A stretch of DNA of 64,000 nucleotides, from positions 744,001 to 808,000 of the forward strand of contig NZ_CP076019.1 in assembly GCF_018623055.1 (NCBI RefSeq), written 5' to 3'. Positions 4,465 through 53,257 of this stretch are shown here, in pieces (the first letter of the stretch is position 1; every line of letters starts with the position of its first letter). A model generated the notes under the pieces. That model was not told where the DNA came from. It saw only the letters and a program-made list of their open reading frames with translations, and did not search any database. The translations under genes were made by a program, and so were the position numbers. This stretch comes from Halorubrum sp. 2020YC2 (GTDB lineage: Archaea > Halobacteriota > Halobacteria > Halobacteriales > Haloferacaceae).

Positions 4465-4887
4465 ATGGAACGACGACAATTCCTGCGCGGTACCGGTGCG
4501 GCGATCGGCGGCTCGCCGCTCGCCGGCTGCGCGGGGGGCGGCGGATCGGGAACGGTGACCGTCGACTACGCGTACTACAACCCGGTCAGCCTCGTGTTGC
4601 GCGAGAAGGGCTGGCTCGACGAGGCGTTCTCGGCGCTCGACCGGCTGACGAAGGCCGACCAGCAGGACCACCTGCTCGACGTGTGGGAGGAGCGCGGGAC
4701 GACGGTCGTCCTCGTCACCCACGACGTCGAGGAGGCCGTCTACCTCGCGGACCGGGTCGTCGTCCTCGGCGGCCAGCCCGGCACGGTGGAGTCGGTCGTC
4801 GACGTGGACATCGAGCGCCCCCGCGAGCGGGCGGACGCCGACTTGGTCGCGCTCCGGCGGGAGGTGACCGGCGCGCTGGGCCGGTAG
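4465..4887 (+). pseudogene. fusion remnant: start of SsuA/TauA-type binding protein joined to end of SsuB/TauB-type ATPase
   Basis: 140 codons, in frame but chimeric. Residues 1 to about 53 are the start of a Tat lipoprotein (ERRQFLRGTG, lipobox LAGC) followed by VTVDYAYYNPVSLVLREKGW, as in sulfonate/nitrate/taurine binding proteins. From LDEAFSALDRLTKADQQD onward the sequence is the last third of the partner ABC ATPase: D-loop SALD, H-loop VLVTHDVEEAVYLADRVVVL and a normal C-terminus. Walker A, Q-loop, the ABC signature, the permease and most of the binding protein are absent. The joint LDEAF/LDEPF is shared by both families, so recombination at a short repeat probably removed over 2 kb. No function is expected. 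Confidence 0.85.
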
Positions 4888-5157: not shown

Positions 5158-6379
5158 ATGACAGACATCACGGAGGCTTCGTCGGACACCCCGGCGGATC
5201 GAGTTCTTCCAGGGCACGATAGCTTCTAACGTCGAAATCGGTCCTGTACGGATCTTCGACACGACCCTGCGAGACGGAGAACAGTCACCACGCACGTCGT
5301 TCAGCTACGAGGAGAAACGCCGCATAGCGGCGACGCTGGACGACATGAACACCCACGTCATCGAGGCGGGGTTCCCGGTCAACTCGGACGCGGAGTTCGA
5401 GGCCGTCAGCGACATCGCCGCCGCGACGGACACCACCGTCTGCGGGCTGGCGCGGGTCGTCGAGGGCGACATCGACGCCGCCATCGACTCCGGCGTCGAG
5501 ATGGTCCACGTGTTCGTCTCCACCAGCGACGTTCAGCTGGAGGACTCGATGCACGCGACCCGCGAGGAGGCGAAGGAACGCGCGGTCGACGCCGTCGAGC
5601 AGGTGAAAGACGCCGGCGTCGAGTGTATGTTCTCCCCGATGGACGCCACCCGGACGGACCCGGACTACCTGGTGGACATCGTCGAGGCCGTCTCCGAAGC
5701 GGGCACCGACTGGATCAACATCCCGGACACCTGCGGCGTCGGGATGCCGACCAGCTTCGGACAGACGGTGAACGCCGTCGTCGAGGCGACCGACGCCCGC
5801 GTCGACGTCCACACCCACGACGACTTCGGCATGGCCGCGGCCAACGCGGTCACCGGCTTCGAGAACGGCGCGGAGCAGGCGCAGGTGTCGGTCAACGGGA
5901 TCGGCGAGCGCGCCGGCAACGCCGCCTACGAGGAGGTCGTCATGGCCGTCGAGTCGGTGTACGGCGTCGACACCGGTATCGACACGACCCAGATCACCAA
6001 GCTGGCCCGGATCGTCGAGGAGGCCTCGGACATCCCGGTGCCGGCGAACAAGCCCGTCACCGGGCGGAACGCGTTCGCCCACGAGTCGGGCATCCACGCC
6101 GCCGGCGTCATCGAGAACAGCGACACGTTCGAGACCGGCGTGATGACCCCGGAGATGGTGGGCGCCGAGCGCGAGTTCGTGCTGGGCAAACACACGGGCA
6201 CCCACAGCGTGCGCAAGCACCTGGTGGAGGCCGGCTTCGACCCGACGGACAGCGAGGTCCGGTCGATTACGAAGCGGGTCAAGGAGTACGGCTCCGGCAA
6301 GCGGCAGGTGACCGCTGGCGACGTCGAGCGGTTCGCCGAGGAGGCGGACGTCACGCGGGAGGAGGAGGTCCGGGTCTGA
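5158..6379 (+). pseudogene. leuA: 2-isopropylmalate/citramalate synthase, frameshifted near the N-terminus
   Basis: The main frame encodes the DRE-TIM metallolyase domain (FDTTLRDGEQSPRTSF; HTHDDFGMAAANA; GIGERAGNAAYEE; HESGIHAAGV). Its catalytic motif at about 5257 lies upstream of the first in-frame ATG (5345), and no start codon exists between the in-frame TGA (5159-5161) and that motif except rare CTGs. The ATG at 5158, correctly spaced from a TATA-like TTAAGTA (5128-5134), is in another frame that stops at 5227-5229. Removing one C from the CCCC run at 5189-5192 joins MTDITEASSDT to RRIEFFQGTI, the normal family start. It is therefore a real mutation or a sequencing indel. The leucine and isoleucine (citramalate) roles cannot be separated by eye. 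Confidence 0.85.
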
Positions 6380-6474: not shown

Positions 6475-6480
6475 TTTATA
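6475..6480 (+). promoter_or_regulatory. TATA-like box of the ilvB operon leader
   Basis: TTTATA within GGAATTTATACCCC. The expected start site about 26 nt downstream (near 6504) falls at the ATG of the leader peptide (6506), predicting a leaderless leader ORF. Confidence 0.65.
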
Positions 6481-6505
6481 CCCCGGCCGCGTTGCTTCGG
6501 GCGAG

Positions 6506-6580
6506 ATGCGACGGCACACCGCGGTCGCGGAGCGAACGGGCGTTCCCGCAGCCGTCGCGCCGATCATTGTAGGGGTATAA
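6506..6580 (+). CDS. 24-aa Val/Ile-rich leader peptide before ilvB
   Basis: A complete 24-codon frame from ATG at 6506 to TAA at 6578-6580. It starts MRRHTAVAERTG and ends VPAAVAPIIVGV, so five Val and two Ile occur in 24 residues, clustered at the end. A TATA-like box is spaced for transcription to start at this ATG. The last codons form the 5' arm of a perfect hairpin, and the stop codon sits in its loop. Position, composition and hairpin match what is expected of an attenuator leader for the ilv/leu operon that follows 172 nt downstream. There is no experimental support in the sequence itself. Confidence 0.6.
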   Translation: MRRHTAVAERTGVPAAVAPIIVGV

Positions 6581-6589
6581 GCCCCTACA
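6568..6589 (+). promoter_or_regulatory. attenuator-like hairpin overlapping the leader stop codon
   Basis: TGTAGGGG (6568-6575) pairs perfectly with CCCCTACA (6582-6589) around the loop TATAAG, which contains the leader peptide's TAA. A pyrimidine-rich tract (CTATCCCTTCCTC) follows. A ribosome at the stop codon would cover the 5' arm, so translation and folding should exclude each other. Confidence 0.6.
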
Positions 6590-6620
6590 CTATCCCTTCC
6601 TCACCGACCCGACGTACCGC

Positions 6621-6703
6621 CGAACGCGGGCGAGCGGGCCGTTTCCGACGCGCGGAGTTCAGTTTCGGAGGCGCGAGCCTCGACCCCGCCCGTCCCGCGT
6701 TCG
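6621..6703 (+). promoter_or_regulatory. long-range stem and inner hairpin in the ilvB leader
   Basis: CGAACGCGGG (6621-6630) is perfectly complementary to CCCGCGTTCG (6694-6703). Between them GAGGC-GCGA-GCCTC forms a 5-bp hairpin with a GNRA-type loop near 6668-6681. The fold occupies most of the gap between the leader peptide and ilvB and leaves the last 50 nt before the start unpaired. It could be an alternative structure in an attenuation switch, but this is inferred from base pairing alone. Confidence 0.45.
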
Positions 6704-6752
6704 CAGCGACCGACACCAGCCGCCAGACCCCACACCGAACACCACCACGACA

Positions 6753-8561
6753 ATGAGCGACACAGCAGCACACACACGAGAGGACGACCCGGACGGCTCC
6801 GCGGAGCCGGCGGGGGCCGACGACGGGACGCCCGACGCCGACGACGCCCCCGCCGCGGGGCCCGTCTCGACCGGCGCCGAGTCGGTCGTCGCCGCCCTCG
6901 AGGCCGCGGGCGCGAAGACCGCCTTCGGCGTTCAGGGCGGCGCGATCATGCCCGTCTACGACGCGTTGTACGACTCGTCGATCCGACATGTAACGATGGC
7001 CCACGAGCAGGGCGCCGCCCACGCCGCGGACGCGTACGGCGTCGTCGCGGGCGAGCCGGGGCTCTGTATGGCCACCTCCGGCCCGGGCGCGACGAACCTC
7101 GTCACCGGCATCGCGGACGCCGACATGGACTCGGACGCGATGTTAGCGCTGACCGGGCAGGTCCCCACGGAGTTCGTCGGCAACGACGCGTTTCAGGAGA
7201 CCGACACGGTCGGCGTCACCCGCCCCATCACGAAGCACAACTACTTCGCGGGCGGCGCCGACACCGTCGGGGACACCGTCGGCGAGGCGTTCGAACTGTC
7301 GCGGGCCGGGCGCCCCGGGCCGACGCTCGTCGACCTCCCGAAGGACGTGACGCAGGACGAGACGGACCGGACGCCCGGGCCGGCGACGCCGCCCGCGGGG
7401 ACCGACCCCGACCCGAACGCCGACCCGGACGCGGTCGAGGAGGCGGCGCGCGCCATCGAGTCGGCCGAGCGACCGGTCTGCCTGTTCGGCGGCGGCGTCA
7501 TCAAGGGCGACGCGAGCGCCGAGGCGCGGACCTTCGCCCGGAGCTACGGGATTCCGGTGACGACGACGATGCCGGGCATCGGCTCGTTCCCCGAGGACGA
7601 CGACCTCTGTCTCTCGTGGGCGGGGATGCACGGCACCGGCTACGCGAACCTCGCAATCACCCACACCGACTGCCTGATCGCGGTCGGCACCCGGTTCGAC
7701 GACCGGCTGACCGGCGGGATCGACACGTTCGCGCCCGAGGCCGAGGTGATCCACGTCGACATCGACCCCGCGGAGATATCGAAGAACGTCCACGCCGACT
7801 ACCCGCTCGTCGGGGACGCGGGACGCGTCTTGGACCAGTTGACCGCCGCCGTCCGCGAGGCGCCCGCCGCCGAGGCGTGGCGCGACCGGTGCGAGGAGTG
7901 GACGGAGACGTACCCGCTCACGTACGCGACGCCCGACGACGAACCGCTGAAGCCGCAGTTCGTCGTCGAGGCGTTCGACGAGGCGACCGACGACGACACC
8001 ATCGTGACGACCGGCGTCGGCCAACACCAGATGTGGGCCTCGCAGTTCTGGACGTACTCGGAGCCGCGGACGTGGGTCTCCTCGCACGGGCTGGGGACGA
8101 TGGGGTACGGCGTGCCGGCCGCGGTCGGCGCGCGCGTCGCAGCCGACACGATGGGCGAGGAGGACCGCGACGTGGTGTGTTTCGACGGCGACGGCTCCTT
8201 CCTGATGACGATGCAGGAGCTGTCGGTCGCGGTCCGCGAGGACCTCGACGTCACGATAGCGGTGCTCAACAACGAGTACATCGGGATGGTCCGGCAATGG
8301 CAGGACGCCTTCTACGAGGGACGCCACATGGCGTCCGACTACACGTGGATGCCCGAGTTCGACAAGCTCGCGGAGGCGTTCGGCGCCCTCGGGATCCGCG
8401 TCGACGACTACGACGAAGTCGCGCCCGCGGTCGAGGAGGCGCTCGACTACGACGGTCCCGCCGTGGTCGACTTCCACGTCGACCCCGAGGAGAACGTCCT
8501 GCCGATGGTGCCGAGCGGCGGCGCGAACGGCAAGTTCGCGGCCGCGGAGGACCAGCTATGA
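6753..8561 (+). CDS. ilvB: acetolactate synthase, large (catalytic) subunit
   Basis: 602 residues, the full family length plus a 40-residue acidic N-terminal extension. ThDP-enzyme features: the catalytic Glu in MAHEQGAAHAADAYG, the central FAD/acceptor domain, and the ThDP/Mg motif beginning GDGSFLMTMQEL and ending VLNNEY. It condenses two pyruvates to 2-acetolactate (valine and leucine path), or pyruvate with 2-oxobutyrate (isoleucine path). It is the first gene of the ilvBNC-leuCDB operon. Its stop overlaps the ilvN start (ATGA). Expression is probably governed by the leader region at 6475-6703. Confidence 0.97.
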   Translation: MSDTAAHTREDDPDGSAEPAGADDGTPDADDAPAAGPVSTGAESVVAALEAAGAKTAFGVQGGAIMPVYDALYDSSIRHVTMAHEQGAAHAADAYGVVAGEPGLCMATSGPGATNLVTGIADADMDSDAMLALTGQVPTEFVGNDAFQETDTVGVTRPITKHNYFAGGADTVGDTVGEAFELSRAGRPGPTLVDLPKDVTQDETDRTPGPATPPAGTDPDPNADPDAVEEAARAIESAERPVCLFGGGVIKGDASAEARTFARSYGIPVTTTMPGIGSFPEDDDLCLSWAGMHGTGYANLAITHTDCLIAVGTRFDDRLTGGIDTFAPEAEVIHVDIDPAEISKNVHADYPLVGDAGRVLDQLTAAVREAPAAEAWRDRCEEWTETYPLTYATPDDEPLKPQFVVEAFDEATDDDTIVTTGVGQHQMWASQFWTYSEPRTWVSSHGLGTMGYGVPAAVGARVAADTMGEEDRDVVCFDGDGSFLMTMQELSVAVREDLDVTIAVLNNEYIGMVRQWQDAFYEGRHMASDYTWMPEFDKLAEAFGALGIRVDDYDEVAPAVEEALDYDGPAVVDFHVDPEENVLPMVPSGGANGKFAAAEDQL

Positions 8562-53241: not shown

Positions 53242-53257
53242 TGTACATACTTGTACA
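53242..53257. promoter_or_regulatory. paired TGTACA (TRP-box-like) operator of trpDFEG
   Basis: TGTACA at 53242-53247 and again at 53252-53257, centres exactly 10 bp apart (one helical turn), downstream of the TATA-like box. TGTACA is the core of the TRP boxes bound by TrpY in methanogens. The site would let a tryptophan-responsive repressor block initiation. Confidence 0.6.

Follow-up and report, generated by a model that had tools for sequence, protein, structure and literature searches.

We propose that the gap between leuA and ilvB in haloarchaea holds a cis-acting sensor of isoleucine and valine: a leaderless leader peptide (uORF1) on whose rare codons a stalling ribosome would mask a hairpin, with transcription termination as the output. 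Comparative sequence analysis leads us to give this reading a probability of about 0.7, and the termination output appears less certain than the sensing part. The element itself is not a product of chance, since it is present in frame in 79 of 79 named ilvB loci with upstream sequence, and a nucleotide pattern derived from it occurs in 375 of 391 genomes of Halobacteria.

The leader region between leuA and ilvB

The element was found in a stretch of 64,000 nucleotides (hereafter the window) of a Halorubrum-like genome, whose ilvB had its best matches, at 96-97%, to H. sodomense and H. trapanicum. The genes ilvN, ilvC, leuC, leuD, and leuB follow in this order 3' of ilvB. The features of the region are listed below by window position and strand.

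6379: end of leuA, the upstream neighbour of ilvB; the promoter and the leader fill the leuA-ilvB gap
6475..6480, + strand: TATA-like promoter element TTTATA, its first T 31 nt upstream of the uORF1 ATG
6506..6580, + strand: uORF1, encoding the leader peptide MRRHTAVAERTGVPAAVAPIIVGV in 24 codons, with ATG at 6506-6508 and the stop codon TAA at 6578-6580
6563..6571, + strand: putative sensing codons ATC ATT GTA (Ile Ile Val), of which ATT and GTA are rare codons
6568..6589, + strand: hairpin TGTAGGGG-TATAAG-CCCCTACA, with the uORF1 stop codon within its loop
6582..6605, + strand: G-free, pyrimidine-rich tract of 24 nt that begins at the 3' arm of the hairpin, a possible termination or factor-loading segment
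6621..6703, + strand: long-range stem (6621-6630 with 6694-6703), conserved in Halorubrum only
6727..6756, + strand: relic of a second frame, uORF2, which in relatives is an ORF running from ATG to ATGA and overlapping the ilvB start; here the position of its ATG reads ACC (6727-6729)
6753..8561, + strand: ilvB, acetolactate synthase large subunit, the first gene downstream of the leader

The spacing between promoter and uORF1 implies that transcription is expected to begin at the ATG or a few nucleotides away from it, and the uORF1 transcript is hence predicted to be leaderless. Most homologous loci display a TATA-like box 29-36 nt (mostly 31-33) 5' of the ATG, so leaderless transcripts are expected there as well; about ten of them had no box under a simple regular expression. 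The 5' leader ranges from 127 to 528 nt across loci, with a median of about 225. A first-pass annotation of this DNA had described a TATA-like box set for a start on the ATG, a 24-codon frame with Val and Ile codons, and a TAA enclosed by the loop of a stem of 8 perfect base pairs (6568-6589). Direct reading confirmed these coordinates and this description, and comparison over the class found the leader peptide and its Ile/Val codons conserved.

This comparison was based on 80 named ilvB loci, 79 of which had upstream sequence. Further counts were made in 75 non-redundant loci (8-mer sharing below 35%), which are still phylogenetically non-independent. Of the 86 genera, 80 had the pattern ATYGTAGGGGN{2,14}CCCC, which usually occurs a single time in a genome. 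The 24 matches outside Halobacteria are chance hits that all lack an in-frame stop. The ilvB loci of the 16 pattern-negative genomes comprised ten variants of the element, four loci with no gap, one genome without a close ilvB orthologue, and one partial ilvB match that was left out of the upstream reading. Thus, all ten pattern-negative genomes with a leuA-ilvB gap and readable upstream sequence carry variants, read by eye, some of them with compensated stems. These include GTATCGTACGGGCCCGTTAGGCCCGCAC (peptide end IVRAR), ATTGTAGGGCCCGCCTAGGCCCTAC (IVGPA), and others in which Val, Leu, or Arg replaces the Ile directly before GTA. The element was absent from the four deep-branching small genomes in which ilvB lies directly behind leuA.

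Across Halobacteria uORF1 is 16-63 codons long, with a conserved C-terminus and a free N-terminus. The endings in the 79 named loci mostly follow the form [I/R/L/G..]-I-V-G-[A/V](x)-stop; that of the window is IIVGV-TAA. The Val codon is GTA in 75 of 75 non-redundant loci, even though GTA makes up only 32 of the 3276 Val codons (1%) in their ilvB genes. An Ile codon precedes it in 71 of the 75, and in 51 this codon is ATT; the corresponding ilvB genes use ATT for 89 of their 1530 Ile codons. Within the four-codon stretch that closes with GTA, 79% of positions code for Ile, Val, or Leu, versus 15% in the remaining peptide, an enrichment in codons of the operon's amino acids as seen in attenuators. 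Pairing within the hairpin partly constrains GTA and the following GGG. Yet in 52 of the 75 loci GTA is incompletely paired and is still GTA, so its constancy is not due to pairing alone. The annotation's branched-chain leader holds for isoleucine and valine, the conserved leader codons; no leucine codon is conserved over the class.

In the window, TGTAGGGG (6568-6575) pairs with CCCCTACA (6582-6589), and the loop TATAAG contains the TAA. The stop codon falls within the loop in the uORF frame in 70 of 75 non-redundant loci and in either other frame in none of the 75. Among the named loci the count is 74 of 79, with no filter losses, and in the five remaining loci, which are of Natrialbales type, the stop lies 3' of the hairpin. 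Because the finder accepted only loci with an exactly complementary core of 4 bp and with a stop no more than 30 nt away, core pairing is built into its counts. The inner stem pair is outside these requirements and is kept in 71 of 75 loci as C-G, T-A, or T-G, meaning that the Ala/Val alternation of the peptide is matched on the opposite arm. Compensated changes replace C-G by T-A at the inner pair, and G-C by C-G in variants like GTACGGGCC..GGCCCG. Base pairs were counted in register by script; the MAFFT alignment of the hairpin left the loop, which varies from 5 to 9 nt, ungapped. The hairpin segment folds with a mean z of -2.96 in 72 relatives (82% below -2), and the entire leader RNA of the window is mildly more stable than dinucleotide shuffles (z of -1.70). 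Collectively, the kept inner pair, the compensated variants, the variable loop, and the folding scores indicate that the hairpin acts as RNA. The putative sensing codons abut or form its 5' arm, which would place a stalled ribosome where it alters leader folding, as in attenuators. What the first-pass annotation had named as support for its proposal, namely conserved Val/Ile codons, stop-in-loop geometry, and compensatory changes, was found over the class.

Directly after the loop, a G-free run of at least 16 nt starts in 72% of loci; the corresponding figure for the other CCCC sequences of these loci is 0.4%. This pyrimidine tract has no U-run and is hence not a standard archaeal terminator, which leaves room for a factor-dependent or a translational output. 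For Haloferax volcanii, in vivo termination of 59% of transcripts at a hairpin element has been reported (PMC7237163), and it is plausible that the hairpin and the pyrimidine tract form a haloarchaeal terminator.

The annotation had also described a 10-bp long-range stem and proposed that the position of the ribosome selects between hairpins. The pairing of 6621-6630 with 6694-6703 is exact and is conserved in Halorubrum with one double change; its conservation ends with that genus, and it is probably outside the core mechanism. No conserved alternative structure was found over the class. The region from the hairpin to ilvB displays no excess folding over the class (mean z of -0.19), and in some species it spans just 73-82 nt. 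Hence, the scheme of competing hairpins was rejected.

Proposed mechanism and competing explanations

We postulate the following sequence of events. Transcription would begin at the uORF1 ATG or close to it, with a ribosome trailing the RNA polymerase through uORF1. When charged tRNA-Ile and tRNA-Val are ample, the ribosome would pass the rare ATT-GTA, reach the stop codon in the loop, and depart. The G/C hairpin could then form beside the G-free pyrimidine tract, and most transcription would halt before ilvB. Under a shortage of Ile or Val, the ribosome would stall while ATT or GTA occupies its A site. It would then cover the 5' arm of the hairpin, which would thus be held open and allow ilvBNC-leuCDB to be transcribed. 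In this way the leader would regulate ilvB. As masking of the hairpin would be the work of the stalled ribosome, the scheme has no need for a separate antiterminator. Since a ribosome at the stop codon would also cover the hairpin, the timing of its release matters.

Published data bear on this proposal. The uORF transcripts listed for H. volcanii in complex medium by Babski et al. 2016 (PMC4983044), with a range of 150-250 nt, do not include ilvB. The ilvB leader measures 244-250 nt in species sister to Haloferax volcanii, at the edge of that range. In the Streptomyces ilvB leader, changes of candidate regulatory codons left regulation unaffected (PMC1262725), which by analogy may serve as a warning for the haloarchaeal ilvB leader.

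The same sensor might instead have a translational output, in which the hairpin and the terminating ribosome set the flow to uORF2, and then to ilvB by termination-reinitiation over ATGA, transcription being unaffected. This would account for the ATGA overlap between uORF2 and the start of ilvB, seen in 51 of 72 non-redundant loci, and for the 5'-most ATG of the gap being in the uORF2 frame in 52 of 54 (binomial p of about 1e-22, although the species are not independent). Moreover, ATGA-type overlaps strictly couple translation in H. volcanii reporters (PMC6728339). However, uORF2 is absent in 27 of 109 loci, the window among them, so it cannot be essential, and we regard it as an optional part of the element. 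A translational output also leaves the G-free tract unexplained, and we hold it to be possible but doubtful.

Other readings dispense with codon sensing. The nascent chain, ending in IVGA or IVGV, could itself be an arrest peptide that stalls the ribosome when triggered by an amino acid or some other signal. The C-terminal IVG[AV] is indeed conserved in most species, but Gly and Ala/Val give way to Arg or Pro as the hairpin sequence changes, so the hairpin accounts for them. In the variants IVRAR, IVGPA, and IRVRAA.., Gly or Ala is replaced as the stem changes while Val is retained, which favours codon (charged-tRNA) sensing. Leaders at pheS and trpS bear runs of their own cognate amino acids instead, and we consider an arrest peptide unlikely. 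A G/C palindrome near a promoter, usually occurring once per genome, could also be a DNA operator or an RNA site bound by a regulator, with the uORF incidental. The DNA-operator reading was rejected, as the loop varies where an operator would have fixed half-site spacing. The in-frame stop, the rare branched-chain codons, and the constant reading frame are left unexplained by either form of binding site, which makes this class of explanation very unlikely. We assign similarly little credence to uORF1 being a constitutive device for ribosome loading or stability without amino-acid sensing. Leaderless ORFs are well translated in haloarchaea, but such a device offers no reason for cognate codons at ilvB, pheS, and trpS or for the bias to rare codons. 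The long 5' leader with its conserved hairpin could suggest a metabolite-binding riboswitch or another structured leader RNA. Against this, the window leader had no covariance-model match at E <= 5 to the leader and riboswitch families of Rfam (release 15), conserved structure is limited to one small hairpin, and the conserved bases fall in codons and stem; we find this the least credible of the alternatives.

Leaders at other amino-acid genes

Cognate leaders at other genes make control by a leader peptide the natural reading of the ilvB element. In H. volcanii, two uORFs with mapped transcription starts precede pheS and trpS (Babski et al., PMC4983044). Among 28 genomes with a full pheS match, most had leaderless ORFs before pheS ending in ..GFGFFFAR, ..GFGFFFTAA, ..GFGFFFGA, or the reduced form ..DAFEPFFD. 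The stop codon of this leader lies inside a hairpin of at least five G/C pairs in 8 of 18 cases, versus a background of 3.3%. The pattern GGNTTYGGNTTYTTYTTYN{3,9}TGA was present in 113 of 391 genomes, and its reversed control gave 0 matches. A simple N-terminal motif confirmed pheS just downstream in 11 of 30 fetched loci and was uninformative in the others. The genome of the window has no pheS leader. Meanwhile, Trp-rich leaders of the form W-R-W-R/W (e.g., MQSALRGWRWRVRGADSLVAAA) precede one trpS paralogue. In most of them, a promoter box lies about 27-31 nt 5' of the ATG.

Such leaders were not found wherever they were looked for, as no conserved cognate leaders were detected at trpC and trpD (W-rich) or at valS (V-rich). 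The promoter region upstream of trpD in the window contains the inverted repeat TGTACATACTTGTACA (53242-53257), which we take to resemble the TRP boxes of a methanogen Trp repressor. This repeat points to a repressor, in place of a leader peptide, as the control of Trp synthesis here.

The start of leuA (window 5158-5290) has an unusual arrangement of its own. A leaderless ATG at 5158 opens the frame MTDITEASSDTPADRVLPGHDSF, which stops at 5227-5229 and is one frame off leuA. The LeuA motif FDTTLRDGEQ is in the +1 frame relative to the upstream leaderless ATG in 79 of 79 loci, and 74 of these have no ATG, GTG, or TTG in the frame of leuA between the two. The sequence CGA GTT CTT C is invariant at the leuA start, where CTT represents 12 of 890 Leu codons in leuA bodies, and a pattern with this site was found in 306 of 391 genomes. 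These observations would fit programmed +1 frameshifting, with the rare Leu codon CUU as its site. A start-codon problem in HVO_1510, with possible slippage from an out-of-frame ATG, has been raised already (PMC8305020).

Further upstream, an ORF at 4465-4887 opens with what reads as a lipoprotein signal and continues as the C-terminal portion of an ABC-transporter ATPase (..TTVVLVTHDVEEAVYLADRVVVL..). It appears to be what was left by a deletion between adjacent transporter genes.

The leaders at pheS and trpS suggest a whole class of such leaders. We lean slightly towards a general, unrecognised form of ribosome-based amino-acid sensing in haloarchaea, which would include cognate leaderless leaders at ilvB, pheS, and trpS with hairpins at or near their stops, plus a CUU +1 frameshift in leuA gating LeuA.

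Comparison with known systems

Ribosome-mediated attenuation is textbook bacterial regulation. No report of ribosome-mediated or leader-peptide attenuation in archaea was found in the open-access literature searched, subscription journals being largely outside this scope, in agreement with the first-pass annotation, which had considered peptide attenuation not established in archaea. If our proposal is true, leader-peptide attenuation would occur in archaea with a eukaryote-like RNA polymerase and with no separate antiterminator. A near-universal haloarchaeal case would show transcription-translation coupling regulating genes with an archaeal RNA polymerase. As genera with good genetics (Haloferax) are included, premature termination and coupling in archaea would become directly testable.

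The haloarchaeal element shares several traits with the trp, leu, ilv, and pheST attenuators of enterobacteria. In both, a short ORF in the leader is enriched in the amino acids under regulation, the regulatory codons border or lie within the 5' arm of a hairpin, the leader stop is close by, and pheS has a cognate leader. Rare regulatory codons are also common to both, as in Salmonella leuL, where the regulatory codon is the rare CUA. The haloarchaeal element differs in its archaeal promoter, leaderless start, and archaeal RNA polymerase. It has one small hairpin rather than competing antiterminator and terminator, a pyrimidine tract replaces the U-run, and a second uORF coupled to ilvB is often present. 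It would work like bacterial ribosome-mediated attenuation, yet we do not count it as a classical member, since mutually exclusive hairpins, a defining feature of the classical type, were not found over the class.

The tnaC leader of E. coli offers another parallel, in that a ribosome held close to the stop codon of the leader could cover a neighbouring loading site that is C-rich and G-poor. This leader senses tryptophan by peptide arrest and uses Rho, a factor that, to our knowledge, archaea do not have. A role of FttA/aCPSF1 at the ilvB leader would be a guess.

Closer in gene context are the actinobacterial ilvB uORF or ilvB-II motif (PMC10272879) and the ilvB leader peptides with terminators (PMC1262725). 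In both, a uORF enriched in branched-chain amino acids precedes ilvBNC, and attenuation has been proposed; these leaders are bacterial, and their terminators have U-runs. Finally, the geometry of the uORF2-ilvB overlap is that of the ATGA termination-reinitiation described in H. volcanii (PMC6728339). That process is known for gene pairs, whereas the partner of ilvB would be uORF2, a short and poorly conserved ORF.
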